Source: Hirschia sp.
GTDB taxonomy: Bacteria > Pseudomonadota > Alphaproteobacteria > Caulobacterales > Hyphomonadaceae
Length of the DNA stretch: 64,000 nt
Direction of reading: 5' to 3'
NCBI GenBank assembly: GCA_002709235.1
Contig: PAQI01000024.1
Span: forward strand, 1-64,000
Positions 1,396 through 24,271 of the stretch are shown one piece after another; position 1 is the first letter of the stretch, and each line of letters begins with the position of its first letter. Under the pieces are notes generated by a model that was not told the DNA's origin, did no database searches, and saw nothing but the letters and a program-made list of their open reading frames with translations. A program made the position numbers and the translations under genes.

Positions 1396-1626
1396 ATGTC
1401 TGAAGACAGCGAGAAACGGGAGAAGTTTGTTCGGCTGGCCGAGGGGCGGACTCAGTCTGCGCTCGACGCCATTCGGAAACTTGGCAACCTCTCGAACCGC
1501 CGGGCTTACGAATACAATGATGCTGACGTGAAGAAGATCATCAAAGCGCTCCGAGATGCGACAGGCGAGATAGAGCGAAAGTTCGGATCGACTTCGGGCG
1601 ATGGCGCAGACAAGTTCAAGCTGTAG
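1396..1626 (+). CDS. small acidic/charged protein preceding a GHKL ATPase
   Basis: A 76-residue protein beginning MSEDSEKREKFVRLAEGRTQ. I chose the ATG at 1396 over a GTG at 1366 because the sequence before it is poor coding and an AGAAGG lies about a dozen bases upstream. It is charged, predicted helical, and has no signal peptide or membrane segment. It ends 12 bases before the GHKL ATPase gene, so the two are almost certainly co-transcribed. I do not recognise the family. A role as partner or regulator of the ATPase is inference from spacing alone. Confidence 0.6.
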   Translation: MSEDSEKREKFVRLAEGRTQSALDAIRKLGNLSNRRAYEYNDADVKKIIKALRDATGEIERKFGSTSGDGADKFKL

Positions 1627-1638
1627 GGGGCGCAATCC

Positions 1639-3504
1639 ATGAAGGCTGAACCACTTAACATTCGCGACAAGCGATTTCTCATAAACCGGCTGATCGAACA
1701 GGCGCCCGTGAGCACGCTGGTTCGCGAGTTCTTCAAGAATGCCGACGAAAGCGCTGTTCTGGCGGAAACGGGGAATCGTCGTATCGAAATCTACCCCACG
1801 ACGATTGATGGCGTACGCAAGCTGACCTTCTGGAACACGGGCGTGGGTATGGACGATAGAGAGTTGAAGCAAGCGACCGATCTATCATCTTCGATCAACA
1901 AAGAGATGGCGCTTGATGGCAATTTCGGGATTGGGGCGAAGGTCTCAGGTCTCACCATGTCGCGCGAAGGGATACGCTATCGGTCGTGCAAGAGTGGCAT
2001 CGTCAACGAAGTCACCATCGGCTTCGATGCTGACGAAGGCACCTATGTCCGCTTCCCTGTCGAATTGCCTGACGGCAGCTCGGACACTGTCTATGACGTT
2101 ACCGACGTGGCCCGTGAAGCGGGACAGGACACCGCGTTCGACTGGACGGAAGTCGTCCTGCTCGGTCAAAGCGAAGATCACGACACCGTAGCCGAGCCGC
2201 TGGGCAAAGGGAAAAGTCTGGACCGAAGCTTCATTCCGTCGGCGATCTTCCGGCGTTTTGCGCGTTTTGGAGAGGGAGTCGAAGTTCGCGTCGATGTCGC
2301 CATGACCAAAGGCGGCGGCAAAGGCGAGACAGGTCGTACGCGTCGATTGAAAACGCTGGAAGATGTGGTCGACGAGTTGCCCAACCATGAAAGGGTCGAA
2401 GCGCCCGGCGGGGAGGTCATTGTACACTATATCCACGACCCCAAGCATGAGCGGCACAGCCATTCGCTAAGTGCGCTCGCCAATCCGGCGACGAGTTCCA
2501 CGACATTTTGCGCGCTGGTGCATAAAGGTGAGCGCTATGACATCAAGTCGAAGAAGGCTTGGTCGGCGGCAGCCCCGAACTTCGGTATTCCCTTCGGCTC
2601 GAAGGTCCTCACGATCGAAATCGAGCTTGCTGACAATGTCGCCATGCCAAATCAGTATCGTGATGGACTGACCTGGCCCGATGACCGGTCGCCGATGGTC
2701 GCTGAGGACTTCGATGCCTATGTGCGCGAGCTCATGCCCGAATGGGTCAGGGAGGTCATTCGTTCCGAGTCACCATCCTCCGACGACAATCTGGATGATC
2801 TCCAAACCGACCTTCAGAAACTCCTCGACGAGTTCCGTGTCCCCACGGCGACCCTTAGTCCCTCTCGTCGTCCGATGGCATCCCCGACTGAGGATACTGC
2901 TGAGGGCACCGATACGTCCGATCCCGTCGACCTCGATACGGATTTCCCGGAAACGGGCGACGAGCTAGATGAGAACGGGGACAAGCGCGACCCGAGCAAG
3001 AGCCAACGCGCCAAGCATAAGAAGGTGCGTAAGGCGCCGGATGGGGCAAAACTTTCCCGTTCCGCCCAGTCGTTGGAGCGCGTGCCGGAGATCAAGATCC
3101 TCACCGATCCCGAAGAAATCGCGGAGAAGAATCTGAAAGGCCGCGCGGGACGTTTTTACAAGGATGCCCAAACGCTGTTCGTGAACGGTTTGTACTCTGT
3201 CGTGGAACGTATGGCAGTCGAACTCGATGCCGAGCTACGGACGTCCGGCGAGCCGGAAGTAGTGCGCACTGCGATACTAAGGGCCTCTCGCAAGTTCATG
3301 GCCTTCCGAGTTGGGAAGGCCACCTGCTACGCCATCAGCAAACGACTCTCTGACGACTGGTCGAGCGACGATCTCGACCGTGCCACCTCGCCCGAATCTC
3401 TTTCGCTGGCTGCAGATGACTACAAGCAGAGCATATCTCAGGCCAAGCGCTATGCGAAGGAACTGATCAAGACGGCGGACGTCCCGGAAGAACATGTGGC
3501 CTGA
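1639..3504 (+). CDS. GHKL (Hsp90/MORC-like) ATPase, putative defence protein
   Basis: A 621-residue protein with the three landmark motifs of the GHKL fold near its N-terminus: N box with E30, N34 and D36 (REFFKNADES), a G1 box NTGVGM at 66-71 in which the usual Asp is Asn, and a G2 box GNFGIG at 94-99. The spacing resembles MORC/Hsp90/MutL-type ATPases rather than histidine kinases, since there is no H box. A low-complexity acidic and then basic linker (about residues 400-480) separates the ATPase part from a helical C-terminal part without recognised motifs. It lies in a string of defence-type genes, so nucleic-acid surveillance or an abortive response is plausible but unproven. It may form a two-gene unit with the 76-aa gene upstream. 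Confidence 0.7.
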   Translation: MKAEPLNIRDKRFLINRLIEQAPVSTLVREFFKNADESAVLAETGNRRIEIYPTTIDGVRKLTFWNTGVGMDDRELKQATDLSSSINKEMALDGNFGIGAKVSGLTMSREGIRYRSCKSGIVNEVTIGFDADEGTYVRFPVELPDGSSDTVYDVTDVAREAGQDTAFDWTEVVLLGQSEDHDTVAEPLGKGKSLDRSFIPSAIFRRFARFGEGVEVRVDVAMTKGGGKGETGRTRRLKTLEDVVDELPNHERVEAPGGEVIVHYIHDPKHERHSHSLSALANPATSSTTFCALVHKGERYDIKSKKAWSAAAPNFGIPFGSKVLTIEIELADNVAMPNQYRDGLTWPDDRSPMVAEDFDAYVRELMPEWVREVIRSESPSSDDNLDDLQTDLQKLLDEFRVPTATLSPSRRPMASPTEDTAEGTDTSDPVDLDTDFPETGDELDENGDKRDPSKSQRAKHKKVRKAPDGAKLSRSAQSLERVPEIKILTDPEEIAEKNLKGRAGRFYKDAQTLFVNGLYSVVERMAVELDAELRTSGEPEVVRTAILRASRKFMAFRVGKATCYAISKRLSDDWSSDDLDRATSPESLSLAADDYKQSISQAKRYAKELIKTADVPEEHVA

Positions 3505-3753: not shown

Positions 3754-4371
3754 ATGCCCCAGACCCGCTCCCAACGCGAGATAGTCCGCGATCTCCTAGC
3801 GGCGCGTGGGATTCTACGCCTTGCGGAACTTAGGGACGCCGGTGTCACCGCCGCAACCGTCAGCCGCATGGAGAAGGATGGCGAGGTTATCCGCCTGGCG
3901 CGCGGGCTCTACCAGCTCCCTGACGCAGAGCTCGACGCAAACCACAGCCTTGCCGAAGCGGCCAAGCGTTTACCCAAGGGCGTGATCTGCCTCGTCTCGG
4001 CGCTCGCCTTTCATGGCCTCGCGGATCAGCTTCCCAAGAAGATATGGATGGCGATTGGCCGGAATGACTGGACGCCGAAGCCAAGCGACATGCAGATTCG
4101 TGTGCTGCGCTTCTCGGACGATCTGCTCATCGAAAGCGTCGAAACCCATGTGATCGAAGGCGTATCGGTAAAGGTGTTCGGCGTGGCGAAGACCGTCGCG
4201 GACTGCTTCCGCCATCGCGGCAAGATCAGTCTCGCCGTCGCGCTCGAGGGTCTCCAAGAGGCTCTGCGCCAACGCAAATCCACGCCGGCCGAGATCGCTA
4301 GGGCAGCGGACACAGGCGGGGTCGGCACGGTGATCCGCCCTTATCTGGAGGCACTGACCACCAATGGCTAA
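3754..4371 (+). CDS. AbiEi-family antitoxin/transcriptional regulator
   Basis: 205 residues. The N-terminal 60 residues form a winged-helix segment (SQREIVRDLLAARGILRLAE followed by a GVTAATVSRMEKDGEV recognition-helix region and the ARGLYQLP wing) typical of AbiEi antitoxins. The C-terminal part (VFGVAKTVADCFRHRGKISL) matches the AbiEi antitoxin C-terminal domain. It overlaps the next gene by 8 bases. Its partner is not the usual AbiEii nucleotidyltransferase but an unrelated 461-aa protein. An inverted repeat just upstream suggests autorepression. Confidence 0.8.
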   Translation: MPQTRSQREIVRDLLAARGILRLAELRDAGVTAATVSRMEKDGEVIRLARGLYQLPDAELDANHSLAEAAKRLPKGVICLVSALAFHGLADQLPKKIWMAIGRNDWTPKPSDMQIRVLRFSDDLLIESVETHVIEGVSVKVFGVAKTVADCFRHRGKISLAVALEGLQEALRQRKSTPAEIARAADTGGVGTVIRPYLEALTTNG

Positions 4372-5749
4372 GGCTGGCGGATATGTCTTGCGTCTGACCC
4401 ATGAGCGGCGCGATGTCTTTCATCATGCCGTGGATGAGTATGGCCGTTTCGCGGAAGCGGTGCCGTTGTTCGGCCACAGCCGCAATGCGCCTCTAGTCTG
4501 TTTCATTGTCGATCCGTCTGGCCGTGTCACGCATATCGGGCGGGGACGACGGGGGGTGAACGCGGGAACGCAGCAAAGCCGACTCAACATTGAGGAAATC
4601 CATTCGGTCGATGATGTTGTCTCCATTCAAAGCATTATCGGCGGCGTGCCAAATCGCAATCGGAAGGCCGTCGAACAGAGATTCCTTAGTGGCGGCTTGC
4701 TTTCGCCAAAGGCGTTCCAGGAAGCGATCGATGTTTTTGTCCGGCTCGCGCCAGGGGCTCGTAGCTTGGTCGATCGTTTCACAACATCGACCCGCCAGCG
4801 TCTTGAGCGGCTGAGCGAGCGGGCGCGAGATAGCCTTGCCTATCAGAAGGAAGCTTTGGCCGTTGCCCTGAGCCTCGCCGGGATCGACCGTGCGCCACTG
4901 GCTCAGTGGTCGTTGGAGGATGAGGCCCCCGGGTCATTCTTGGACGGGTTGCCGGAGGTTCGCATGCGCGAGGATCCGATGGTTATCCAAGATATGCGAC
5001 AGGTGCCGGGCTACGATTACCTCCGAGAGATTCCCAATGCTGCCGCTGCCGTTTTCGCTGACGGTGACGACCGCCTTACCGTGATAATGGCCAATCGGCA
5101 GCCGCTCGAGGAGCAGACCGGGACTGATCTGATCTACTACAATGAACGGTTCAGGGCGTTCGTCATGGTTCAATACAAGGCCATGGAGGCGGATGACGAT
5201 TTAGGTGCGATCTTTCGGTTCCCTGAGGCAAAACTCACCGATGAACTTCATCGAATGGACAGGTTTCTCAAGGAGTTGTCCAAGGTAAAAGCCGCCTCGG
5301 CACTGGATGATTTTCGCTTTAGCGACAACCCGTTCTTTTTGAAGTTTTGCCCACGAATTCAGTTCGAACCCGATAGCACAGGCCTGACGAAAGGAATGTA
5401 TATCCCCCATGCCTATTGGAAGCTTCTTGAAAAAGACGACCGATTTAAGGGCCCGCGGGGCGGTCGCCGTCTAGCGTACTCGAATGTGGGTCGATACTTC
5501 GACAACACCTCATTCACAATGATGGTCAAGGGCGCATGGGTGGGGACAAACATTCCGCAATCCGAACTTTTGGAAAGGTGGATGCGTGATGTCGTGGCCG
5601 CTGGCCGCTCCATCACCTTTGCGGTCAAGCCCGACGATCCGGACCCCGATGGGGACGGTGCGTTAGTCGTGAATCCAAACTTGGATCTAGATGGCTTGGC
5701 TGTCGAACACGATAAAGAGCCCGAGCGGGTCCAAATTTCACGCGGGTGA
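4364..5749 (+). CDS. 461-aa protein with Mrr-like D...QxK signature, partner of AbiEi-like regulator
   Basis: 461 residues, start ATG at 4364 inside the end of the AbiEi-like gene, so translation is probably coupled. I do not recognise the full-length family. In the middle, E249/E250, D255 and then VMVQYKAM (Q270, K272) give the spacing E-D-(Q)xK with two predicted beta strands, as in Mrr-type members of the PD-(D/E)XK superfamily in which Gln replaces Glu. This suggests a nuclease effector, but it is a motif reading only. The N-terminal part (FIVDPSGRVTHIGRGRRG) could be a small substrate-binding domain. A normal AbiE system has an AbiEii nucleotidyltransferase here; this gene has no GS..DxD motif. 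Confidence 0.6.
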   Translation: MAKAGGYVLRLTHERRDVFHHAVDEYGRFAEAVPLFGHSRNAPLVCFIVDPSGRVTHIGRGRRGVNAGTQQSRLNIEEIHSVDDVVSIQSIIGGVPNRNRKAVEQRFLSGGLLSPKAFQEAIDVFVRLAPGARSLVDRFTTSTRQRLERLSERARDSLAYQKEALAVALSLAGIDRAPLAQWSLEDEAPGSFLDGLPEVRMREDPMVIQDMRQVPGYDYLREIPNAAAAVFADGDDRLTVIMANRQPLEEQTGTDLIYYNERFRAFVMVQYKAMEADDDLGAIFRFPEAKLTDELHRMDRFLKELSKVKAASALDDFRFSDNPFFLKFCPRIQFEPDSTGLTKGMYIPHAYWKLLEKDDRFKGPRGGRRLAYSNVGRYFDNTSFTMMVKGAWVGTNIPQSELLERWMRDVVAAGRSITFAVKPDDPDPDGDGALVVNPNLDLDGLAVEHDKEPERVQISRG

Positions 5750-8474: not shown

Positions 8475-9352
8475 TCCCCGAGACGAACATCACCGCCTGG
8501 AGTCTGACGGCGCCCTGGGCTGAGCCGAGGCAGGTTGAGCAAGATTTGATCATCTCGCGAGCGCTCGTGGAGATTTTCAATCACGATCTCCTAGGATCTG
8601 AGCTGAGGTTCCGAGGTGGTACGGCCCTCAACAAAGTGATCTTTCCGGAACCGCTACGGTATTCCGAAGACATTGATCTCGTTCGGACGACCGCAGGGCC
8701 TATCGGCCCCATTCTTGATGCTATGCGAGAGGTGCTGGAACCTTGGTTAGGGCAAGCGAATTTTGCGTCGAGCCAAGTTGCTCCGAAGTTACGCTTTCGT
8801 GTGCCGGCCGAGGATGATCCCGAAGCGCAGATTCGTCTGAAGGTCGAGATCAACATTTCAGAGATCGAAGCCTTCGATCCACCGGCTTCAATCCCATATG
8901 CCGTTGAGAACCCGTGGTTCAAGGGAAGTACGACCATAGCGTCCTTCTCCGCGGAAGAGCTTCTGGCGACGAAGCTACGTGCCTTGCTGCAACGCGATAA
9001 AGGACGCGATCTTTTCGATCTCGATCATGCGCTCAATGCGCTTCCCGATTTGGACATCGAACGGGTCGTCGCGCTTTTTGTGCGCTATCTTGATCAGCAA
9101 GGTCAGGCCATCTCCCGGGCTGAAGCAGAACAGCGGATGCTCGCGAAATTCGCGCGACCAGACCTTTTAGGAGATATCCGCGCACTACTCACCCCCGATC
9201 GCGCCGACGCACTTGATGCCTCTGCCGGACGCGCCGCATTCATCAGGGTGTTCACAGATGTGATCGAGCGGATTCCTGGTCAGAGGTGGGCGCGTACCGA
9301 CGAAGTCTCGCATCAACTAAGTCTCTCTGAAATCGCCGAGAGATCGTCGTGA
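8471..9352 (+). CDS. abiEii: AbiEii nucleotidyltransferase toxin
   Basis: 293 residues. It carries the AbiEii/DUF1814 nucleotidyltransferase signature: RFRGGTAL, then RYSEDIDLV giving the G-(G/S)...DxD catalytic pattern, and the downstream KLRALLQRDKGRDLFDL motif typical of the family. By family knowledge AbiEii toxins modify RNA (some add nucleotides to tRNA) and stop growth on phage infection. It is translated as a coupled pair with AbiEi and overlaps the next small HTH gene by 4 bases, so that gene belongs to the same operon. Confidence 0.88.
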   Translation: MIPETNITAWSLTAPWAEPRQVEQDLIISRALVEIFNHDLLGSELRFRGGTALNKVIFPEPLRYSEDIDLVRTTAGPIGPILDAMREVLEPWLGQANFASSQVAPKLRFRVPAEDDPEAQIRLKVEINISEIEAFDPPASIPYAVENPWFKGSTTIASFSAEELLATKLRALLQRDKGRDLFDLDHALNALPDLDIERVVALFVRYLDQQGQAISRAEAEQRMLAKFARPDLLGDIRALLTPDRADALDASAGRAAFIRVFTDVIERIPGQRWARTDEVSHQLSLSEIAERSS

Positions 9353-9771
9353 GCACGCATTCATCAATACGACAGACACTCGATAGACCCTATCGGGATG
9401 CGAGTGGCAGTAACGCGACGAACGTTTACGCACATAAAAATATGTGGCAAGATACATTAAAATATGTGGCTGAGAATGATATGCCATACGCCGATTTTCT
9501 TGTAGAGCTGGGCAAAGCGGGACTGAGCGTTCGCGCGTTCGCCGAGCTTGTCGGTATGAATCCGAATTCGATCTCCAACTATGCGCGTAATGGCGAACTT
9601 CCCACACACCTTGCATTGATTGCGGTCCTGATCACAGGGATGAGCGAGCTGGGCGGCGACTATCGCCAGGCTATGTCGAAGGTGGCGCTAACACCGAAGA
9701 AGGTTCGCGGCGGTGCCCGGAAAGGCCACTTTGGCGGTGATCGTCAGAGCAGCTTGGATCTCGTCCCATGA
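9349..9771 (+). CDS. small helix-turn-helix protein in the AbiE operon
   Basis: 140 residues from a GTG overlapping the abiEii stop; an internal ATG at 9442 (MWQDTLKYVA) is an alternative start and the better match to conserved-looking sequence. The middle (GLSVRAFAELVGMNPNSISN) is a clear lambda-repressor/XRE-type helix-turn-helix, followed by a basic glycine-rich tail. AbiE operons normally have two genes, so a third HTH gene is unusual and may be an extra regulator or a partner of the downstream methylase operon. Confidence 0.6.
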   Translation: MSTHSSIRQTLDRPYRDASGSNATNVYAHKNMWQDTLKYVAENDMPYADFLVELGKAGLSVRAFAELVGMNPNSISNYARNGELPTHLALIAVLITGMSELGGDYRQAMSKVALTPKKVRGGARKGHFGGDRQSSLDLVP

Positions 9772-9825
9772 CCGGAGCCTGCGCCCTTCTGTTCGCTCGA
9801 CGCACCGCTGATGTGAGGTGCTGTC

Positions 9826-12800
9826 ATGGCTGACCTTCAAAGCAATGCTTCAGCCTTTGGTGCCGATCCCAGATCGTTGCACCTATTCGATAGCGAAAGT
9901 CCGGATCTGCTGCCCTATGCCACGCTGCTGACGGCCCGGCGCGCCGGCGACGAAGATTTGGGCATCGTGCGTGCGGTGTACGAGTGGCAAGGGGCACCGC
10001 TGATATTTCTTATCGATGCTGACTCAGTCACTGATGAGAGCCAGTTGCATCGCATCAGACGCTTGCTCGCTATGCGCGGTGATGCGCCCTATCTCGGGCT
10101 TGTCTCGCCCGGACAACTTCACGTCTATCGACTTGCGCTTGATCGTAAATCCCCGGCGGAGGCTCGCGTCGAGTGGGGGGACGGCGGCGATGAATCAACC
10201 GCATTTGCCCGTCTCGGCAACATTCGTCCCCATGCCGCAATCGGCAAGCGGGATTGGATTTCGAACGTTGTCCTCAATCTTCTTACTGGATCAATCGACA
10301 AACTGATCAAGGCTGGCGGCGTGTCAGATGAGGACGCCATCTCACTTGTCGGCCGCGCGCTGTTTACGCGGTTCCTTGCAGATCGCGACTTGTTACCCAA
10401 GAGCATGGCGGCCCAAACGGTCACACCCAGCCTGTTCGACAATCGTGCGTCTGCAGAAAAGACATCGGCTTGGCTCGACAGAACCTTTAATGGAGATCTT
10501 CTGCCACTGTCCGATGATATTTTTTCGCATCTGCCGGATAATGCGTACCAAGTTCTTGGCGACGTCTTGCGGCGCGCGCCGGACAGCCAACTCTTTCTAG
10601 GATGGGAAGAGAAGTGGGACAATCTTGATTTCTCACACATTCCGGTGGGGGTTCTTAGTCAGGCATACGAGCTCTATCTACGCAATCACGCCCCAGCCCG
10701 GCAGCGTCGTGAAGGTGGATACTACACCCCTCGATCAATAGCCGACCTCCTCGTTCGTGCTTCATTCAGAGCTCTAGAACGGCAGGAGGTAACTCATCTG
10801 GCCCGTGTTCTCGATCCAGCAGCTGGGGCGGGCGTTTTCCTCCTTACTGCATTCCGTGAGCTGGTCGCGGAGCGCTGGCGCATTGAAGGGCAAAGACCAG
10901 ACACTAGCGCTCTTCGTTCGATACTAGACGGCCAAATTGTAGGTTTCGATATCAACGAAGCAGCGCTGAGGTTCGCTGCCTTGGGCTTGTACCTGATGTC
11001 GATCGAACTCGACCCAAATCCACGGCCCGTCGACAAATTGCGGTTCAAAAATCTGCGCGGCAAAGTACTGCATCGCATCTCGGCTGAAAGTGAGGTGGCA
11101 GGTGCACGGCTTGGAAGCCTTGGTCCACTGGTTGGTGACGAGCATGGCGGATGCTACGACTTGGTGGTCGGAAATCCGCCATGGGCGAGTGGCACGAAAC
11201 TACCCGATTGGCATTTGGTTTGTGAGACGGTTGCACGGATTGCCGCTGAACGCGGCATCACAGAAGCTCCTCCGTTACCGAACGAAGTCCTCGATATTCC
11301 GTTCATTTGGCGAGCCATGGAATGGGCCAAGCCAGGTGGCCAGATTACCTTTGCGCTGCATGCCAGGCTACTATTCCAACAGGGCGATGGCATGGGGGAA
11401 GCCCGTCAAGCCTTATTCGATGCACTCGATATTTCGTCGGTCATCAATGGCGTCGAGCTGCGCCAGACCAAAGTCTGGCCCGAAATTTCAGCACCCTTCT
11501 GTCTATTATTCGCAACCAATCGGAAACCGGAAAACAGTGCTGGCTTTCGACTAGTCAGCCCACGTATTGAATCGTCACTAAATGAGTCCGGCATTATGCG
11601 TATCGATGCATCGAATGCAGAAGTGATTCCGGCGCGCGAGCTTCGCGAGACGCCTGAGATTCTTAAGATATTATTTCGAGGAACGAAGGCCGATCTCGGA
11701 ATTATTGAGAGGATACGCAGCAAACTACATCCGACGCTGGATACCTTCTGGCGGGAGGCGATTGGGTCTACCGATCGCGGATATCTCAAAGGAAGTGGCA
11801 ACGGATATCAGAAGCTAAGGCCAAGCAGCCGTATACGTAAGACCGGTGACGGCTTGCCCGGCGTCGATGCGCGCTATTTGCATGGGCTACCGGAAATCAC
11901 TGCGGCGACGTTTACGGACGTTTCTGTTGATCCGGCGGAGCTAGATTTGTTTTCGCAAGAGAGAATTCATGACCCTCGATCACGTGAGTTATTTGTCGGC
12001 CCTCTCCTTGTGGTCCATAAATCACCTCCCGCGATTAGTGGTCGCATTGGCTTAGCCGTCTCCGAAAAGGACGCCGTCTTTAACGAGACCTTTTACGGCT
12101 ACAGTCCAGGTGACTTTGCAGATCCGCGCGGCCTGACGTCCTATTTGGCCCTCGTCATAGGGAGCAAGCTTGCTGTTTGGTTTGCTCTGATGACTAGTGG
12201 TGAATTCGGTTTTGAACGAGAGGTGGTCGAAAAAGCGACGTTAGATCGCATTCCCTTGCCAGATTTTAGAAAATTCAATCGGAAGAAAATAGCTGAGATC
12301 GAAAAACTCTACGAAGGTTTGCGCACAGACAATGTAACCTGGCAAGAGGTCGATGAGTGGGTTGTAAATTTGTACGGCCTTGGACGGCGTGACCTGCAAG
12401 TGATCTCTGACACCTTGGAGTTCAATTTGCCCTTTGCGCAAAACAAAAGCGATGCCCAAGCTATGCCATCGCGGCAAGAGCAGGTGCGCTTCTGCGAGGT
12501 TTTAGCCGAGGAACTCACCCCTTGGAGCAAGCGACTAGGCTCTGAGTTGCATGTTCACTCACTAGATCATTCGACTGCCTTGCCTTGGTATGGGTTGGAG
12601 GTGCGGACATCAGAGAGCGAGCTAGACCCCACTTCAAACAGTGACTGGAAAGGTCTCCTGCGTGCTGCAGACGACGCTGCGGCATCCGAGATTTTGGTGC
12701 ATAGCCGATCGGGAACCTTGCTTATCGGACGGCTTTCCCAGCGGCGATACTGGAGCGAAACTCAAGCCCGTCTACTCGCCCAGCGCATTGTCTGGTCTCA

Positions 12801-12834
12801 CGTGGATTTCCTGCAAGGGACGGCGAAGGGATGA
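9826..12834 (+). CDS. N6-adenine DNA methyltransferase (Eco57I-like/type IIG-like)
   Basis: 1002 residues. After an N-terminal region of about 290 residues comes YYTPRSIADLLV (299-310), the SAM-binding motif I DPAAGAG (330-336) and the catalytic motif IV NPPW (450-453), which together define an N6-adenine methylase of the N-6_Mtase/Eco57I type. The approximately 500-residue C-terminal part probably contains target recognition; a weak DRIPLPDF segment resembles the end of such domains. There is no obvious nuclease core inside the protein, and the next gene, overlapping by 4 bases, encodes a PD-(D/E)XK protein. Together they look like a restriction-modification pair. Confidence 0.8.
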   Translation: MADLQSNASAFGADPRSLHLFDSESPDLLPYATLLTARRAGDEDLGIVRAVYEWQGAPLIFLIDADSVTDESQLHRIRRLLAMRGDAPYLGLVSPGQLHVYRLALDRKSPAEARVEWGDGGDESTAFARLGNIRPHAAIGKRDWISNVVLNLLTGSIDKLIKAGGVSDEDAISLVGRALFTRFLADRDLLPKSMAAQTVTPSLFDNRASAEKTSAWLDRTFNGDLLPLSDDIFSHLPDNAYQVLGDVLRRAPDSQLFLGWEEKWDNLDFSHIPVGVLSQAYELYLRNHAPARQRREGGYYTPRSIADLLVRASFRALERQEVTHLARVLDPAAGAGVFLLTAFRELVAERWRIEGQRPDTSALRSILDGQIVGFDINEAALRFAALGLYLMSIELDPNPRPVDKLRFKNLRGKVLHRISAESEVAGARLGSLGPLVGDEHGGCYDLVVGNPPWASGTKLPDWHLVCETVARIAAERGITEAPPLPNEVLDIPFIWRAMEWAKPGGQITFALHARLLFQQGDGMGEARQALFDALDISSVINGVELRQTKVWPEISAPFCLLFATNRKPENSAGFRLVSPRIESSLNESGIMRIDASNAEVIPARELRETPEILKILFRGTKADLGIIERIRSKLHPTLDTFWREAIGSTDRGYLKGSGNGYQKLRPSSRIRKTGDGLPGVDARYLHGLPEITAATFTDVSVDPAELDLFSQERIHDPRSRELFVGPLLVVHKSPPAISGRIGLAVSEKDAVFNETFYGYSPGDFADPRGLTSYLALVIGSKLAVWFALMTSGEFGFEREVVEKATLDRIPLPDFRKFNRKKIAEIEKLYEGLRTDNVTWQEVDEWVVNLYGLGRRDLQVISDTLEFNLPFAQNKSDAQAMPSRQEQVRFCEVLAEELTPWSKRLGSELHVHSLDHSTALPWYGLEVRTSESELDPTSNSDWKGLLRAADDAAASEILVHSRSGTLLIGRLSQRRYWSETQARLLAQRIVWSHVDFLQGTAKG

Positions 12835-20123: not shown

Positions 20124-20173
20124 CACCCTGCGCTCCAGCCAGACGGCGGCTCCGAAGGGAACAGCTTCGAACG

Positions 20174-22528
20174 CTATAACCAGCGGGGTTCGGACATTTC
20201 GCCCTGTGTGTCAGGAGAAATCAAATCGGCGAGCGCCACTATCGTCGCGCTGCGTTCTGGAGCTCCCTGCCGCTGAAAATGCACCTCGACACTATTTGCA
20301 CTATGCCTATTACGATCAGGGTATCGAGCTTCACGCCTCAATTCCTTTGCAGTTCGGTCTGCATAGTCTTGGTCCAAAACATAATCCTTAAGTCTATCTC
20401 TAAATTGAGCTGTGACCACTTCATCTGCAGCTATTCCCCATAAATCAACACCCAGCAACGAAATGGCTTTTATACCCTGCTCTAAAATGCCCCATCCAGT
20501 CGGCTCGACCGAAGCGCTTAGCGTCCAATCCATCAGCACCTTCATAATTACCTCGGTTACTTCCGGCGCTATTCGAAAATGACTAACTTTCCCGATATCG
20601 AAGAGTGTTTCAGTTATCTGGAAATTTTCAAGGTATCGTATCTTTTCCGGAGTCACAGGAAGCCAACTAAACACATAAGCAATGTGCAAAGCTTGCCTTT
20701 TTAGGGCGGCGGAATCATCATCAGAGCAAGCCGCAGCGTTTGCTGTGACCAACAAGCATTCGATGTGTAGTTTCAGCCAACTCAACACATGAATTGCGAA
20801 GTGAGATTCTTTTTCGATCGCCAAAAGCAAGAGTTCTTTGTCGGAGCGGTCCGCTCCCTTTGACCACTCAATCAAATTTCGAACAGCACGTTTTGCAATC
20901 TCGCTGTGTTCATCGGCCTCACACAGCTCATTAACGAACAAGGGTAGCCTCTGATTCAGCGCGCCAGTCCCCAGCCCATAATAATTTCCCAAAAGAAAGC
21001 TGTGTATCGAAGAAAATGGCGTGTCATGGATGCTCAAAACAGACTTTGCTACAAACAAATAGTTCGACCTGATCTCTTGTATAACTGGCCCGATTTCATG
21101 CAGCGCAGCATCTTCTCGAACCTTCAATAAGGCGAAACTCAAGTTTGATAGAGCTGTCACGCCTGCAATCGCAATTGGTCGCTTATCTTCTCTAAGAGAG
21201 GTTACCGCAGAAATGACTGCAACACCTTGATCGATTTTCTGAATTCCTCTCGGTCCTTCTGCATACAGGAACCGCTCACCACATCGTCCCAGAATTCTAA
21301 CGACCTCAAGATTTACTTCTGTGAGATTAGTGCTAAGAGAAGCTTGTGTTTCATCCCGAAGGTAACCTAACGCCAAATGTGCATGAAATCTGGAATCCAA
21401 CAGTCCGCCGTATTCAATTCCGATGTAGATATTGATAAGTTGTTCGAATGTTTTGGCGATATGTATAGATAACGCCTCATCACTATCCGATAGCGAGATG
21501 CGCAAGCATTCTTTCAGCCCCTCGAGGGTCATATTAATTATGCGGTCTGTGGTAAGAGGGTTGTCAAAGAAAATATTTACAGAAAAGAATGTCTGGCCTT
21601 TGACCTGAACGTATAACTTATTAAGGCGCACTACAGCGTTTAGCGCCGAAACACAAACATCATAGTCCGATTGTCTGCCAAAGTAACGGACAAAGGAAAA
21701 CGTCTGTTTTAGCGATCTTTCAGTAACGAAAGTCCAATTCTGATTGATTTGAAAAAACGCCACCCTAGCAACATCATGATTGCCTGTGAGACCACTTTGA
21801 GAAGTCGACGGCTTCCTGTCTCGCAATTCCAACAATGGGGCAGTCTTCTTGATACTCTTTTCCCATTTAGCCGAATCTTTCTCCGCTGCTTTTATAAGAA
21901 TATTGAGTTGTTTATGAGGGTTGATGAGCGCCAAGGCCCGAAGATATCCAACCAGAAACAAGACCGGCAACAAAGCGGTTACCAGGCTTGCCAACCATAA
22001 GATCAACGGTAGCCATTCCCTACTTGGAAACACAGAAGTAGCCGTCAAAGCTACCGCAGAACTAAATGCAAGTCCGAACAGTGAGAGCAGCACTTGGTCG
22101 CCGCTCAATGAGCGAAACATACTGTACGGCAGGCGCTCTACATTGACCTGTAGAGCAAAGAGAACCAACGACGAAACAAGCGCAGATGCGCCTATATATC
22201 CACCGCCGAGGGTGAGCAGAATGGCTCGCATATGGTCTACAGAATTTGAGCTAAAACTGGCTCTGATTTCACCTCGATAAATATAGAGAACTATGGCCAA
22301 CACGACGAAAACAAATGAAAATGATCCTACGAGTATCGATTTCCAATTTTTGCTCAATGACACCAAAAATTTAGTCTTGGTGTTCGATGAATACACCCAA
22401 AACTTGGCATAGCTACGGCGAATGAAACGAGTAAGACGTTCTCTGTAAGAACGCTGTTTTCGGGACCAATATCGAATGCGGAACGAAGCATACTCAGCCA
22501 ATGATCTCTTTTTCGACGAACTCTTCAT
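20174..22528 (-). CDS. large multi-pass membrane protein of unknown function
   Basis: 784 residues, noticeably AT-richer than its neighbours. The first about 60 residues are strongly basic, then about five hydrophobic segments lie between residues 65 and 200 (for example SILVGSFSFVFVVLAIVLY). The remaining 550 residues are soluble, helical and repeat-like with no enzyme motif I can see. The N-terminal layout loosely recalls DUF2254-like membrane proteins, but I would not assign it. It is cargo of the mobilizable element, between the coupling protein and the resolvase. A membrane sensor or effector in phage defence is possible; nothing in the sequence proves it. Confidence 0.65.
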   Translation of the reverse strand: MKSSSKKRSLAEYASFRIRYWSRKQRSYRERLTRFIRRSYAKFWVYSSNTKTKFLVSLSKNWKSILVGSFSFVFVVLAIVLYIYRGEIRASFSSNSVDHMRAILLTLGGGYIGASALVSSLVLFALQVNVERLPYSMFRSLSGDQVLLSLFGLAFSSAVALTATSVFPSREWLPLILWLASLVTALLPVLFLVGYLRALALINPHKQLNILIKAAEKDSAKWEKSIKKTAPLLELRDRKPSTSQSGLTGNHDVARVAFFQINQNWTFVTERSLKQTFSFVRYFGRQSDYDVCVSALNAVVRLNKLYVQVKGQTFFSVNIFFDNPLTTDRIINMTLEGLKECLRISLSDSDEALSIHIAKTFEQLINIYIGIEYGGLLDSRFHAHLALGYLRDETQASLSTNLTEVNLEVVRILGRCGERFLYAEGPRGIQKIDQGVAVISAVTSLREDKRPIAIAGVTALSNLSFALLKVREDAALHEIGPVIQEIRSNYLFVAKSVLSIHDTPFSSIHSFLLGNYYGLGTGALNQRLPLFVNELCEADEHSEIAKRAVRNLIEWSKGADRSDKELLLLAIEKESHFAIHVLSWLKLHIECLLVTANAAACSDDDSAALKRQALHIAYVFSWLPVTPEKIRYLENFQITETLFDIGKVSHFRIAPEVTEVIMKVLMDWTLSASVEPTGWGILEQGIKAISLLGVDLWGIAADEVVTAQFRDRLKDYVLDQDYADRTAKELRREARYPDRNRHSANSVEVHFQRQGAPERSATIVALADLISPDTQGEMSEPRWL

Positions 22529-22602
22529 GTCCCAAAGCCTTCAATAGCTGTCCCCTGTCCAGCTTCAAGACTGAATGATCAAAAACGATTCTGCAATTGG
22601 TG

Positions 22603-23232
22603 TCAGATTAGGTTGGCTTTCTGCTCGTGCAATGCCCGTCCCAACGTCCGAACAGATACGCCGTATTCTTTAGCGAGATCGAGCATAGAGATATCGGTCT
22701 CCTCAAGACGAAGGCGTGCAGCAGCGACCATTCTGTCGGTCAATTTCCTTGGCCTACCAAGGGTGACGCCGCGTGCTTTTGCGGCGGCAAGGCCTTCGCG
22801 GGTGCGGGCGCGGAGCTTTTCCCGCTCCCATTCCGACAAGGCGGCGCGGATCGTAAAGGTGAAGCCGCCATCGGCGGTGGTCAGATCATACTCGCCCGAC
22901 ATGGCCTCAAACCCTACGCCGCGCGTGGTCAGCGCGCGCACCTCAGTCAAAGCATCGATCACCGAGCGATAAGCCCGATCCACATCCCACACCACCAGCG
23001 TATCACCGGGCCCCAGCTGCGCCAGCATCGCATCATAGATCGGGCGCGGAGCAGAACTGGCCGACACCCCTTCTTCGATAAATACCAGGTCGCAAGTCTC
23101 GCGCAGGCCGTTGATCTGCCGCGCCGGGTTCTGCCGATCCGTCGAGGTCCTAATATATCCAATTCTGCGCCTGCGCGTTTGTTCTATAGAACGCCTGCCT
23201 TGTCTGGGTTTCCGGTGTTTTTGCGTCGCCAT
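22603..23232 (-). CDS. small serine resolvase/invertase
   Basis: 209 residues from the ATG at 23232; the frame is open to 23313 but that part lacks coding character and runs into a res-like palindrome. The catalytic domain starts RIGYIRTSTDRQ (active Ser in RTST), contains the conserved WDVDRAYRS and the EREKLRARTREGL E-helix, and ends in a helix-turn-helix (DISMLDLAKEYGVSVRTLGR). This is a standard Tn3/Hin-like recombinase of about 200 residues. Two matching palindromes lie between it and the divergent membrane protein gene, the expected place for its recombination site. Confidence 0.88.
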   Translation of the reverse strand: MATQKHRKPRQGRRSIEQTRRRRIGYIRTSTDRQNPARQINGLRETCDLVFIEEGVSASSAPRPIYDAMLAQLGPGDTLVVWDVDRAYRSVIDALTEVRALTTRGVGFEAMSGEYDLTTADGGFTFTIRAALSEWEREKLRARTREGLAAAKARGVTLGRPRKLTDRMVAAARLRLEETDISMLDLAKEYGVSVRTLGRALHEQKANLI

Positions 23233-23251
23233 GCAAGGCCCCTGAAGCGCG

Positions 23252-23404
23252 GACAAAAACCATCGTTTTTGACCGACAGGGCAAACTGACGACAAGCGAG
23301 AGTCTCGCGCCACCCTGTTTTCAATGAAATCAGGATGTTATGAGTCTAGCCGATTGGGGCGGGATCACGCAATCAAAATCATGACAAAAACGATGGTTTT
23401 TGTC
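23252..23404. promoter_or_regulatory. two res-like palindromes in the divergent promoter
   Basis: Two 22-base near-palindromes at 23252-23273 and 23383-23404. Each has arms GACAAAAAC and GTTTTTG(A/T)C around a CATCG/CGATGG centre, and the second is the reverse complement of the first with one difference. They are 131 bases apart centre to centre and flank the resolvase promoter. They are best read as binding or crossover subsites of the adjacent serine resolvase that also autoregulate it. Confidence 0.6.
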
Positions 23405-23421
23405 TATGAATACAGGGCTCT

Positions 23422-23943
23422 ATGCGCGGAGTCCGCGACGTGAGTTTTTTATCCCCCGCCGCTGAAACGACGCTGAATATCGTGGGATTTTCCCTCGCTA
23501 TCCTCGATTTTACAGGGCTTTCAAGGCGAATCGAAGCGGGTCTTGCGCGCTATCGCGATTGGGAGCGTGACTTCGTCGGATACGCTAAAGATCGAAGAAA
23601 TTCACTATTCGATTTCAAGCGGATTTGGCCAGATTTCCTGAATGAGACATTCAATATTGGTCTTGGCTTATTGATCGCCGCCGGAATCGTCTTTTTCTTT
23701 GGCGACCTTAGTCGCGCTGATCCGTATTTGCCTGACTGGCCACACTGGGTCTGGTGGTCACTTCTTGCCTGCGTGCCGATCTTTTGGGTGATCTACTTCA
23801 TCATAAATCATTTGATTTCTGGAACATTGATGGTTTGGACATCTGAAATTACATGGCGTGTGTTCTGGGTGCTGTCTCGACCCAAGGCAGGCGTGCTCGG
23901 CACCATCGGCCTGGCAATAGCCGCTATCGGATTCATCGCCTAA
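23422..23943 (+). CDS. membrane protein of unknown function
   Basis: 173 residues with one hydrophobic stretch near the N-terminus (LNIVGFSLAILDFTG) and three clear membrane segments (IGLGLLIAAGIVFFFG, WWSLLACVPIFWVIYFII, VLGTIGLAIAAIGFIA). The basic loop between residues 35 and 70 should be cytoplasmic. I recognise no family. It is divergent from the resolvase and its promoter region contains one of the res-like palindromes. Confidence 0.65.
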   Translation: MRGVRDVSFLSPAAETTLNIVGFSLAILDFTGLSRRIEAGLARYRDWERDFVGYAKDRRNSLFDFKRIWPDFLNETFNIGLGLLIAAGIVFFFGDLSRADPYLPDWPHWVWWSLLACVPIFWVIYFIINHLISGTLMVWTSEITWRVFWVLSRPKAGVLGTIGLAIAAIGFIA

Positions 23944-24125
23944 ATTGTATGAGCGGGCGCGGTTCCTGCTGGCCTCAACCGAAGCGCTGCAACAGCAGCC
24001 CCCGCCGCCAAGCCTGCTGGCAATCCAGTGAGCAAGCCAACCACTGCAGTGGTTGCAACGACGGTTGCAACCCGGCGCTTCGTTCCAAAAGTTGTATCTT
24101 TAAAATCAAATCGTAAAGCTCTCAA
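23940..24125 (-). CDS. possible small one-segment membrane protein
   Basis: 61 residues from a TTG at 24125 with a GAGG about 5 bases upstream. The protein has a basic N-terminus and a hydrophobic, Ala/Val/Gly-rich middle (VATVVATTAVVGLLTGLPAG). It is convergent with, and overlaps by 4 bases, the gene before it. The rest of the gap up to the TIR gene at 24272 shows only AT-rich promoter-like DNA. It could also be chance. Confidence 0.3.
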   Translation of the reverse strand: MRALRFDFKDTTFGTKRRVATVVATTAVVGLLTGLPAGLAAGAAVAALRLRPAGTAPAHTI

Positions 24126-24271
24126 ATATCCTCACTTGTTATAAGGATATTATGTCATAAACAAACTATAAATTGCAAACTTTTCATAGGCTTGCGCACA
24201 TGCGTATGTTCCGGCTTTGACCACCCGCCAGGAATCGTTGACTTTGTGACTATATTTCATGGTGGTGGTCG

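Follow-up and report, generated by a model that had tools for sequence, protein, structure and literature searches.

The window analysed here (64,000 nucleotides of contig PAQI01000024.1) comes from an alphaproteobacterium, Hirschia sp., with a genome of 3.8 Mb in 45 contigs. It contains two adjacent plus-strand genes, one for a 76-aa protein and one for a 621-aa ATPase of the GHKL (Hsp90/MORC/MutL) type. The pair is conserved in all close relatives of the ATPase and is found in mobile, defence-rich neighbourhoods, and the small protein also occurs beside other ATPases with GHKL motifs. We favor, with a probability of roughly 0.55, the reading that these genes form a mobile two-gene defence module, in which a dimeric GHKL ATPase would work as an ATP-closed clamp together with a dedicated helical subunit and act mechanically on the invader.

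The two genes and their predicted products

The small gene extends from an ATG at 1396 to the stop codon ending at 1626 (an alternative in-frame GTG at 1366 would give an 86-aa protein), and the ATPase gene extends from an ATG at 1639 to the end of its stop codon at 3504. The segment between the two coding parts (1624–1638) consists of the stop codon and a 12-base spacer, as the earlier note had reported. By inspection, the G-rich TAGGGGGC in this spacer is likely the ribosome-binding site of the ATPase gene. The signal in a promoter/terminator scan was at chance level.

The ATPase has the N, G1, and G2 boxes of the GHKL superfamily in this order, at the residues first read from the sequence (E30/N34, NTGVGM, and GNFGIG). 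An alignment of 49 ATPases shows no variation at the core residues. In the N box (REFFKNADE; 1723–1749), these are R29, E30, N34, and E37; in the G1 box (NTGVGM, residues 66–71; 1834–1851), N66, G68, and G70; and in the G2 box (GNFGIGAK, residues 94–101; 1918–1941), N95, F96, G97, G99, A100, and K101. Position 94 is a glycine in 36 of the 49 sequences. Pfam matches to the ATPase were all below the cut-offs (HATPase_c, E 0.003; HATPase_c_3, E 0.002), and PADLOC (0 families at E up to 1) and NCBIfam gave no match. In the AlphaFold model (overall pLDDT 76.5), residues 1–382 (1639–2784) form a GHKL fold followed by a middle (S5-like) domain. This part matches the structures of Hsp90 (Z 18.5), SMCHD1 (17.5), MORC3 (17.0), MORC4 (16.8), MORC2 (16.4), and MutL (15), which bears out the earlier placement in the Hsp90/MORC class; the protein is thus predicted to be an Hsp90/MORC-like GHKL module with a middle domain. 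A predicted disordered linker (residues 400–479; 2836–3075; pLDDT approximately 30–37) leads to a C-terminal alpha+beta domain (residues 483–613; 3085–3477; pLDDT mostly 70–89). Sequence searches agree with the earlier statement that the C-terminal region has no known domain, but a folded domain is seen there in the model. Among the matches listed in a structure search with the whole ATPase, none covers this domain.

The model of the small protein is an alpha-hairpin with helices at residues 3–33 and 42–63 (pLDDT mostly >90). Its best-conserved part is the GNLSN motif at the end of the first helix (residues 30–34; 1483–1497), which is located in the hairpin turn and is invariant in an alignment of 36 sequences that includes copies from phage contigs. 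A disordered tail closes with FKL (1615–1623), in which the phenylalanine is nearly invariant. In pairwise codon comparisons with nine relatives, pairs without dS saturation gave dN/dS values of approximately 0.03–0.05 for the small gene and the ATPase gene alike. Both genes are under strong purifying selection, and the small ORF is therefore a real gene. A Foldseek search of the PDB with the hairpin gave zero matches at E up to 10, no PADLOC model matched the small proteins tested at a significant level, and neither a PHROGs search with the small protein nor PDB sequence searches with either protein gave informative results. The literature searches, which reached few subscription papers, turned up no account of the small partner.

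The small protein could also be a mini-HEPN RNase that serves as the effector, with the ATPase as its switch. The DUF4145 family belongs to the HEPN superfamily and has been reported in operons with restriction-modification genes (PMC3710099), and sub-threshold matches to DUF4145 were found for 14 of the 36 members (best E 0.0019), together with two HepT-like matches. However, the catalytic motif R-x4-6-H is missing from the small proteins, with N34 at the position of the histidine and a variable R27, and the protein is just two helices long and lacks any PDB match in the Foldseek search. An RNase role is thus improbable.

Distribution and partner exchange

Scanning genome contigs with ATPase motif patterns that are independent of the small gene yielded 80 loci, to which plasmids added more. 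A tree of 87 ATPases, built by a quick method with SH-aLRT support, has three main clades. Clade I comprises 37 rows from Alphaproteobacteria and from single MAGs labelled Deltaproteobacteria/Myxococcota and Verrucomicrobiota, and every row shares 54% or more identity with the window ATPase. The small gene is located upstream in 37/37 of these, with a gap of 5–17 bases (median 11); the rows do not represent 37 independent events because near-identical copies are among them. The observed pairing in clade I is confirmed as conserved far beyond chance. In clade II, 11 of the 16 loci have the small gene, whereas clade III has it in none of 31. Accordingly, the expectation that the small gene always accompanies relatives of the ATPase holds for clade I, in part for clade II, and not for clade III. 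Among close relatives, neither of the two patterns that the earlier note named as contrary evidence, housekeeping contexts and frequent absence of the small ORF, was found.

The five clade II loci without the small gene are L047, L053, L055, L058, and L088. Three of these (L047, L055, and L058) have mutually related genes directly upstream instead. The one in L047 (6355–7866), the only one compared with Pfam, is DndB-like (PF14072, E 1e-27), and by inspection a gene of the same type precedes the ATPase in the viral contig L128. At these loci, the DndB-like gene appears to be an alternative partner. A different pattern is seen in clade III, where the Acidisoma locus L012 has a TPR gene downstream of the ATPase, and several other loci (L062, L068, L071, L076, L082, L089, and L092) carry either a related gene after the ATPase or an ATPase ORF of much greater length. 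The long ORFs (1086–1455 aa) look like fusions, and the arrangement recalls Hsp90 and its TPR co-chaperones.

The ATPase is rare, being present in 6 of 385 genomes of the class, and ATPases with 99% identity occur in different bacterial families. The pair moves between bacteria horizontally. A search of phage records for the ATPase found none. The viral contigs L126–L154, some of which are large, carry distant relatives of the ATPase (23–37% identical), most of which match it over part of its length.

Sampling by the small protein gave a broader view of its partners. A profile search of 398 Pseudomonadota genomes recovered nine copies, including that of the window. In all eight others, a GHKL-motif ATPase is the next gene downstream, or the next but one (L108). 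Two of these ATPases belong to clade II and the remaining six to other GHKL types: those of L105, L106, and L108 match the PADLOC model PDC-M33A, that of L107 aligns with the same group, and those of L109 and L110 have the motifs EKxxNxxD, DxGEGQ, and GxFNxGG. The small gene also precedes PDC-M33A-like ATPases on plasmids of Planococcus, Priestia, Arthrobacter, Deinococcus, and Paenarthrobacter, and most of these loci have restriction-modification or Shedu genes nearby. In Ensifer and two viral contigs, it precedes an ATPase of approximately 800–830 aa with a third motif set. Among viral contigs, pairing with a GHKL-motif ATPase is seen in L111–L115, and among plasmids in L009–L011, L095–L097, L099, L101, and L159. 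These other partner families are assigned to the GHKL proteins by their three motifs, which occur in the expected order; profile-profile comparisons between the ATPase families gave no significant link, and PDB profile searches gave no significant match. The pairing has exceptions: in Lactococcus and Ligilactobacillus, the PDC-M33A-like genes stand without the small gene, as do the EKxxN-type genes of plasmids L160–L162. In Deinococcus actinosclerus (L099, 5204–5741), the ATPase is annotated too short, and an open in-frame stretch directly behind the small gene encodes its N-terminal GHKL part.

These patterns qualify the earlier proposal of a two-gene unit: the unit stands for clade I but is not exclusive, as the small protein is common to other GHKL-motif ATPases. 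In the small-protein tree, which has 77 columns and resolves few forks besides this placement, the copies from L111 and L112 nest in clade II (bootstrap 99, SH-aLRT 96). The L111 protein is about 69–76% identical to the nearest clade II small proteins. The L111 and L112 ATPases, however, are of the third type and unlike the clade II ATPase. Judged from these sequences, partners have been exchanged, with one small-protein type located beside a different ATPase in one lineage. Together, the pairings point to the small protein as an overlooked subunit that several candidate anti-phage systems have in common.

Several copies of the small protein have no ATPase beside them. These are found on the rhizobial plasmids L093, L155, and L156 and in phage contigs and records (L117–L121 and L100). 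In L120, the small-protein relative is the C-terminal part of an SprT-like protein. Like the clade III and five clade II ATPases that lack the small gene, these copies weigh against our preferred reading. They are also relevant to its main rival, a toxin-antitoxin-like arrangement in which the first-encoded small protein would keep the ATPase inactive until phage attack frees it, and in which the lone copies would be counter-defence antitoxins. The gene order and coupling agree with such an inhibitor, as do the lone copies on rhizobial plasmids and in phages and the nesting of the L093 copy among the clade I small proteins. However, L053, L088, and the members of clade III have full-length ATPase ORFs but no small gene, and a toxic ATPase would scarcely tolerate this absence. 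An antitoxin-like role is therefore weakened, and we treat it as possible but not favored. A further idea, which we regard as doubtful, is that many GHKL/paraMORC-type defence ATPases of different bacterial phyla share the GNLSN hairpin as a subunit and that it is swapped between unrelated ATPases, with the lone phage and plasmid copies being captured decoys that disarm such systems.

Genomic neighbourhoods

Downstream of the pair, the window contains an AbiEi gene with a 461-aa partner, two minus-strand genes of no assigned family, and an AbiEi/AbiEii pair, followed by an HTH gene, a type IIG-like methylase gene, one more gene, an integrase gene, and a recombinase gene (the last two by inspection). 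A similar arrangement is located beside element genes on an Agrobacterium tumefaciens plasmid (L009). The same island of this plasmid, pAtK224b, also encodes a caspase-family protein and a restriction endonuclease (20164–24268).

Two parts of the downstream region are worth describing in their own right. At 3754–5749, the AbiEi-type antitoxin gene overlaps the next gene, in which a 461-aa protein of no known family replaces AbiEii. In Dinoroseobacter (L010), where AbiEi is absent from this place, a 461-aa copy with 84% identity comes directly after the same ATPase. The 461-aa protein is possibly a new toxin. It was considered as a third component of the pair and rejected, as it is found only in the window, L010, L015, and L017. 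More generally, no third constant gene exists; Gabija and the 461-aa gene recur at some loci only. At 9349–12834, the HTH gene has a weak match to mad1 (E 0.014), and the large methylase matches type IIG models (E 8e-24) and mad2 (E 8e-14). By these matches, the region looks like the beginning of a MADS or type IIG system.

To compare clades, genes within 5 kb of the ATPase were scanned with PADLOC (E up to 1e-10). The 92 neighbour genes of clade I matched 240 models and the 78 of clade III, used as a control, matched 10; these figures count models rather than independent genes, with one Gabija pair matching many, and since many models can match one gene, the comparison is a contrast and not a count of systems. 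The clade I matches include GajA and GajB models, each with as many as five matching genes, as well as reverse-transcriptase-associated helicase models. By Pfam, the neighbours also include KAP NTPase, a BREX BrxC/D protein, ResIII, and HipA. The remaining neighbourhood differs between loci. A housekeeping role of the ATPase is rejected for clade I, in which its occurrence is sporadic and its neighbours are variable and defence-rich. The setting in a defence island, read initially from the window, is thus seen across clade I, which occupies mobile elements and defence-rich neighbourhoods, in contrast to the poor control. This context supports the status of defence candidate and suggests anti-phage activity.

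Some loci adjoin DUF932, ParB, relaxase, or integrase genes, as would be expected if the pair were a non-defence accessory of integrative elements and plasmids, with a role in maintenance, transfer, or chromatin-like organisation. However, the neighbours vary by locus whereas defence genes recur, and the other GHKL-motif partners of the small protein are located with DNA methylase, Vsr, restriction enzyme, and Shedu genes. Such an accessory role is unlikely.

Comparison with known systems and proposed mechanism

GHKL ATPases in restriction-modification loci are already known, namely MORC and paraMORC1–5 (PMC2292703; Iyer, Abhiman and Aravind 2008), and the window ATPase resembles these prokaryotic proteins in its N-terminal GHKL and S5-like domains, its sporadic spread, and its restriction-modification or defence neighbourhoods. 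The small partner is not in the papers found, and a term search of PMC2292703 gave no sign of such a gene. By inspection of the alignments, the ATPase lacks features that define MORC proper, paraMORC2, paraMORC3, and paraMORC5. For MORC proper, the S5 motif GhXhhpXXRhl is lacking: by inspection, YR at 340–341 is conserved, but N333 rather than G is located eight positions before R341. The S5 ExxxH motif of paraMORC2 is missing, as the invariant or nearly invariant ATPase columns include no conserved histidine. Likewise, the C-terminal part has no conserved histidine for the HxH of paraMORC5. The nuclease of paraMORC3 and Shedu type I-D (E-D-ExK; DUF4263) has no counterpart, with no Pfam match to DUF4263 and no conserved ExK in residues 483–613. 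As to the TIR feature of paraMORC4, either a C-terminal domain or an adjacent gene, no TIR Pfam match was found in the ATPase itself, and the neighbours were scanned in part.

A known example with proven anti-phage activity is VcSduA, a GHKL-Shedu fusion of type I-D, in which an ATPase-motif mutant abolished phage defence (PMC12137116). It shares the GHKL ATPase and a clamp-like middle domain with the window protein. However, VcSduA is encoded by one gene and has a PD-(D/E)xK nuclease at its C-terminus, whereas the window ATPase has no recognised nuclease and has a separate 76-aa partner. The PADLOC candidate PDC-M33 consists of M33A, M33B, and M33C (DUF6339). The M33A-like proteins carry GHKL motifs, and their genes have the same small gene upstream in the five plasmid-bearing genera named above; unlike the window pair, PDC-M33 has a different ATPase family and two more genes, and the window ATPase cannot be assigned to M33A given its lack of PADLOC matches. 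Finally, the regulatory pair CapK (HTH-STAS-GHKL) and CapS (STAS-wHTH) (PMC13373217) also combines a GHKL protein with a second protein by immune operons, but neither architecture is present in the window pair.

For the preferred reading as a two-gene defence module, the following mechanism may be proposed. The product of the large gene would be an Hsp90/MORC-type GHKL ATPase that dimerises and closes its two arms on ATP. The 76-aa helical hairpin would bind it as a dedicated subunit and may govern loading, triggering, or target choice. The ATP-closed clamp would then trap or remodel invading DNA or a phage nucleoprotein complex, with the action of eukaryotic MORC proteins on chromatin as the model. 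A mechanical action is the most likely one because the protein has no recognisable nuclease.

GHKL ATPases beside restriction-modification genes have been known since 2008, mostly without a mechanism. The small recurrent partner offers a handle on them: it marks further systems, and its size suits structural and binding work. The copies of the small protein in phages and on plasmids predict a testable form of counter-defence. In addition, the pairing with M33A-like genes suggests that PDC-M33, as described in PADLOC, misses one of its genes.
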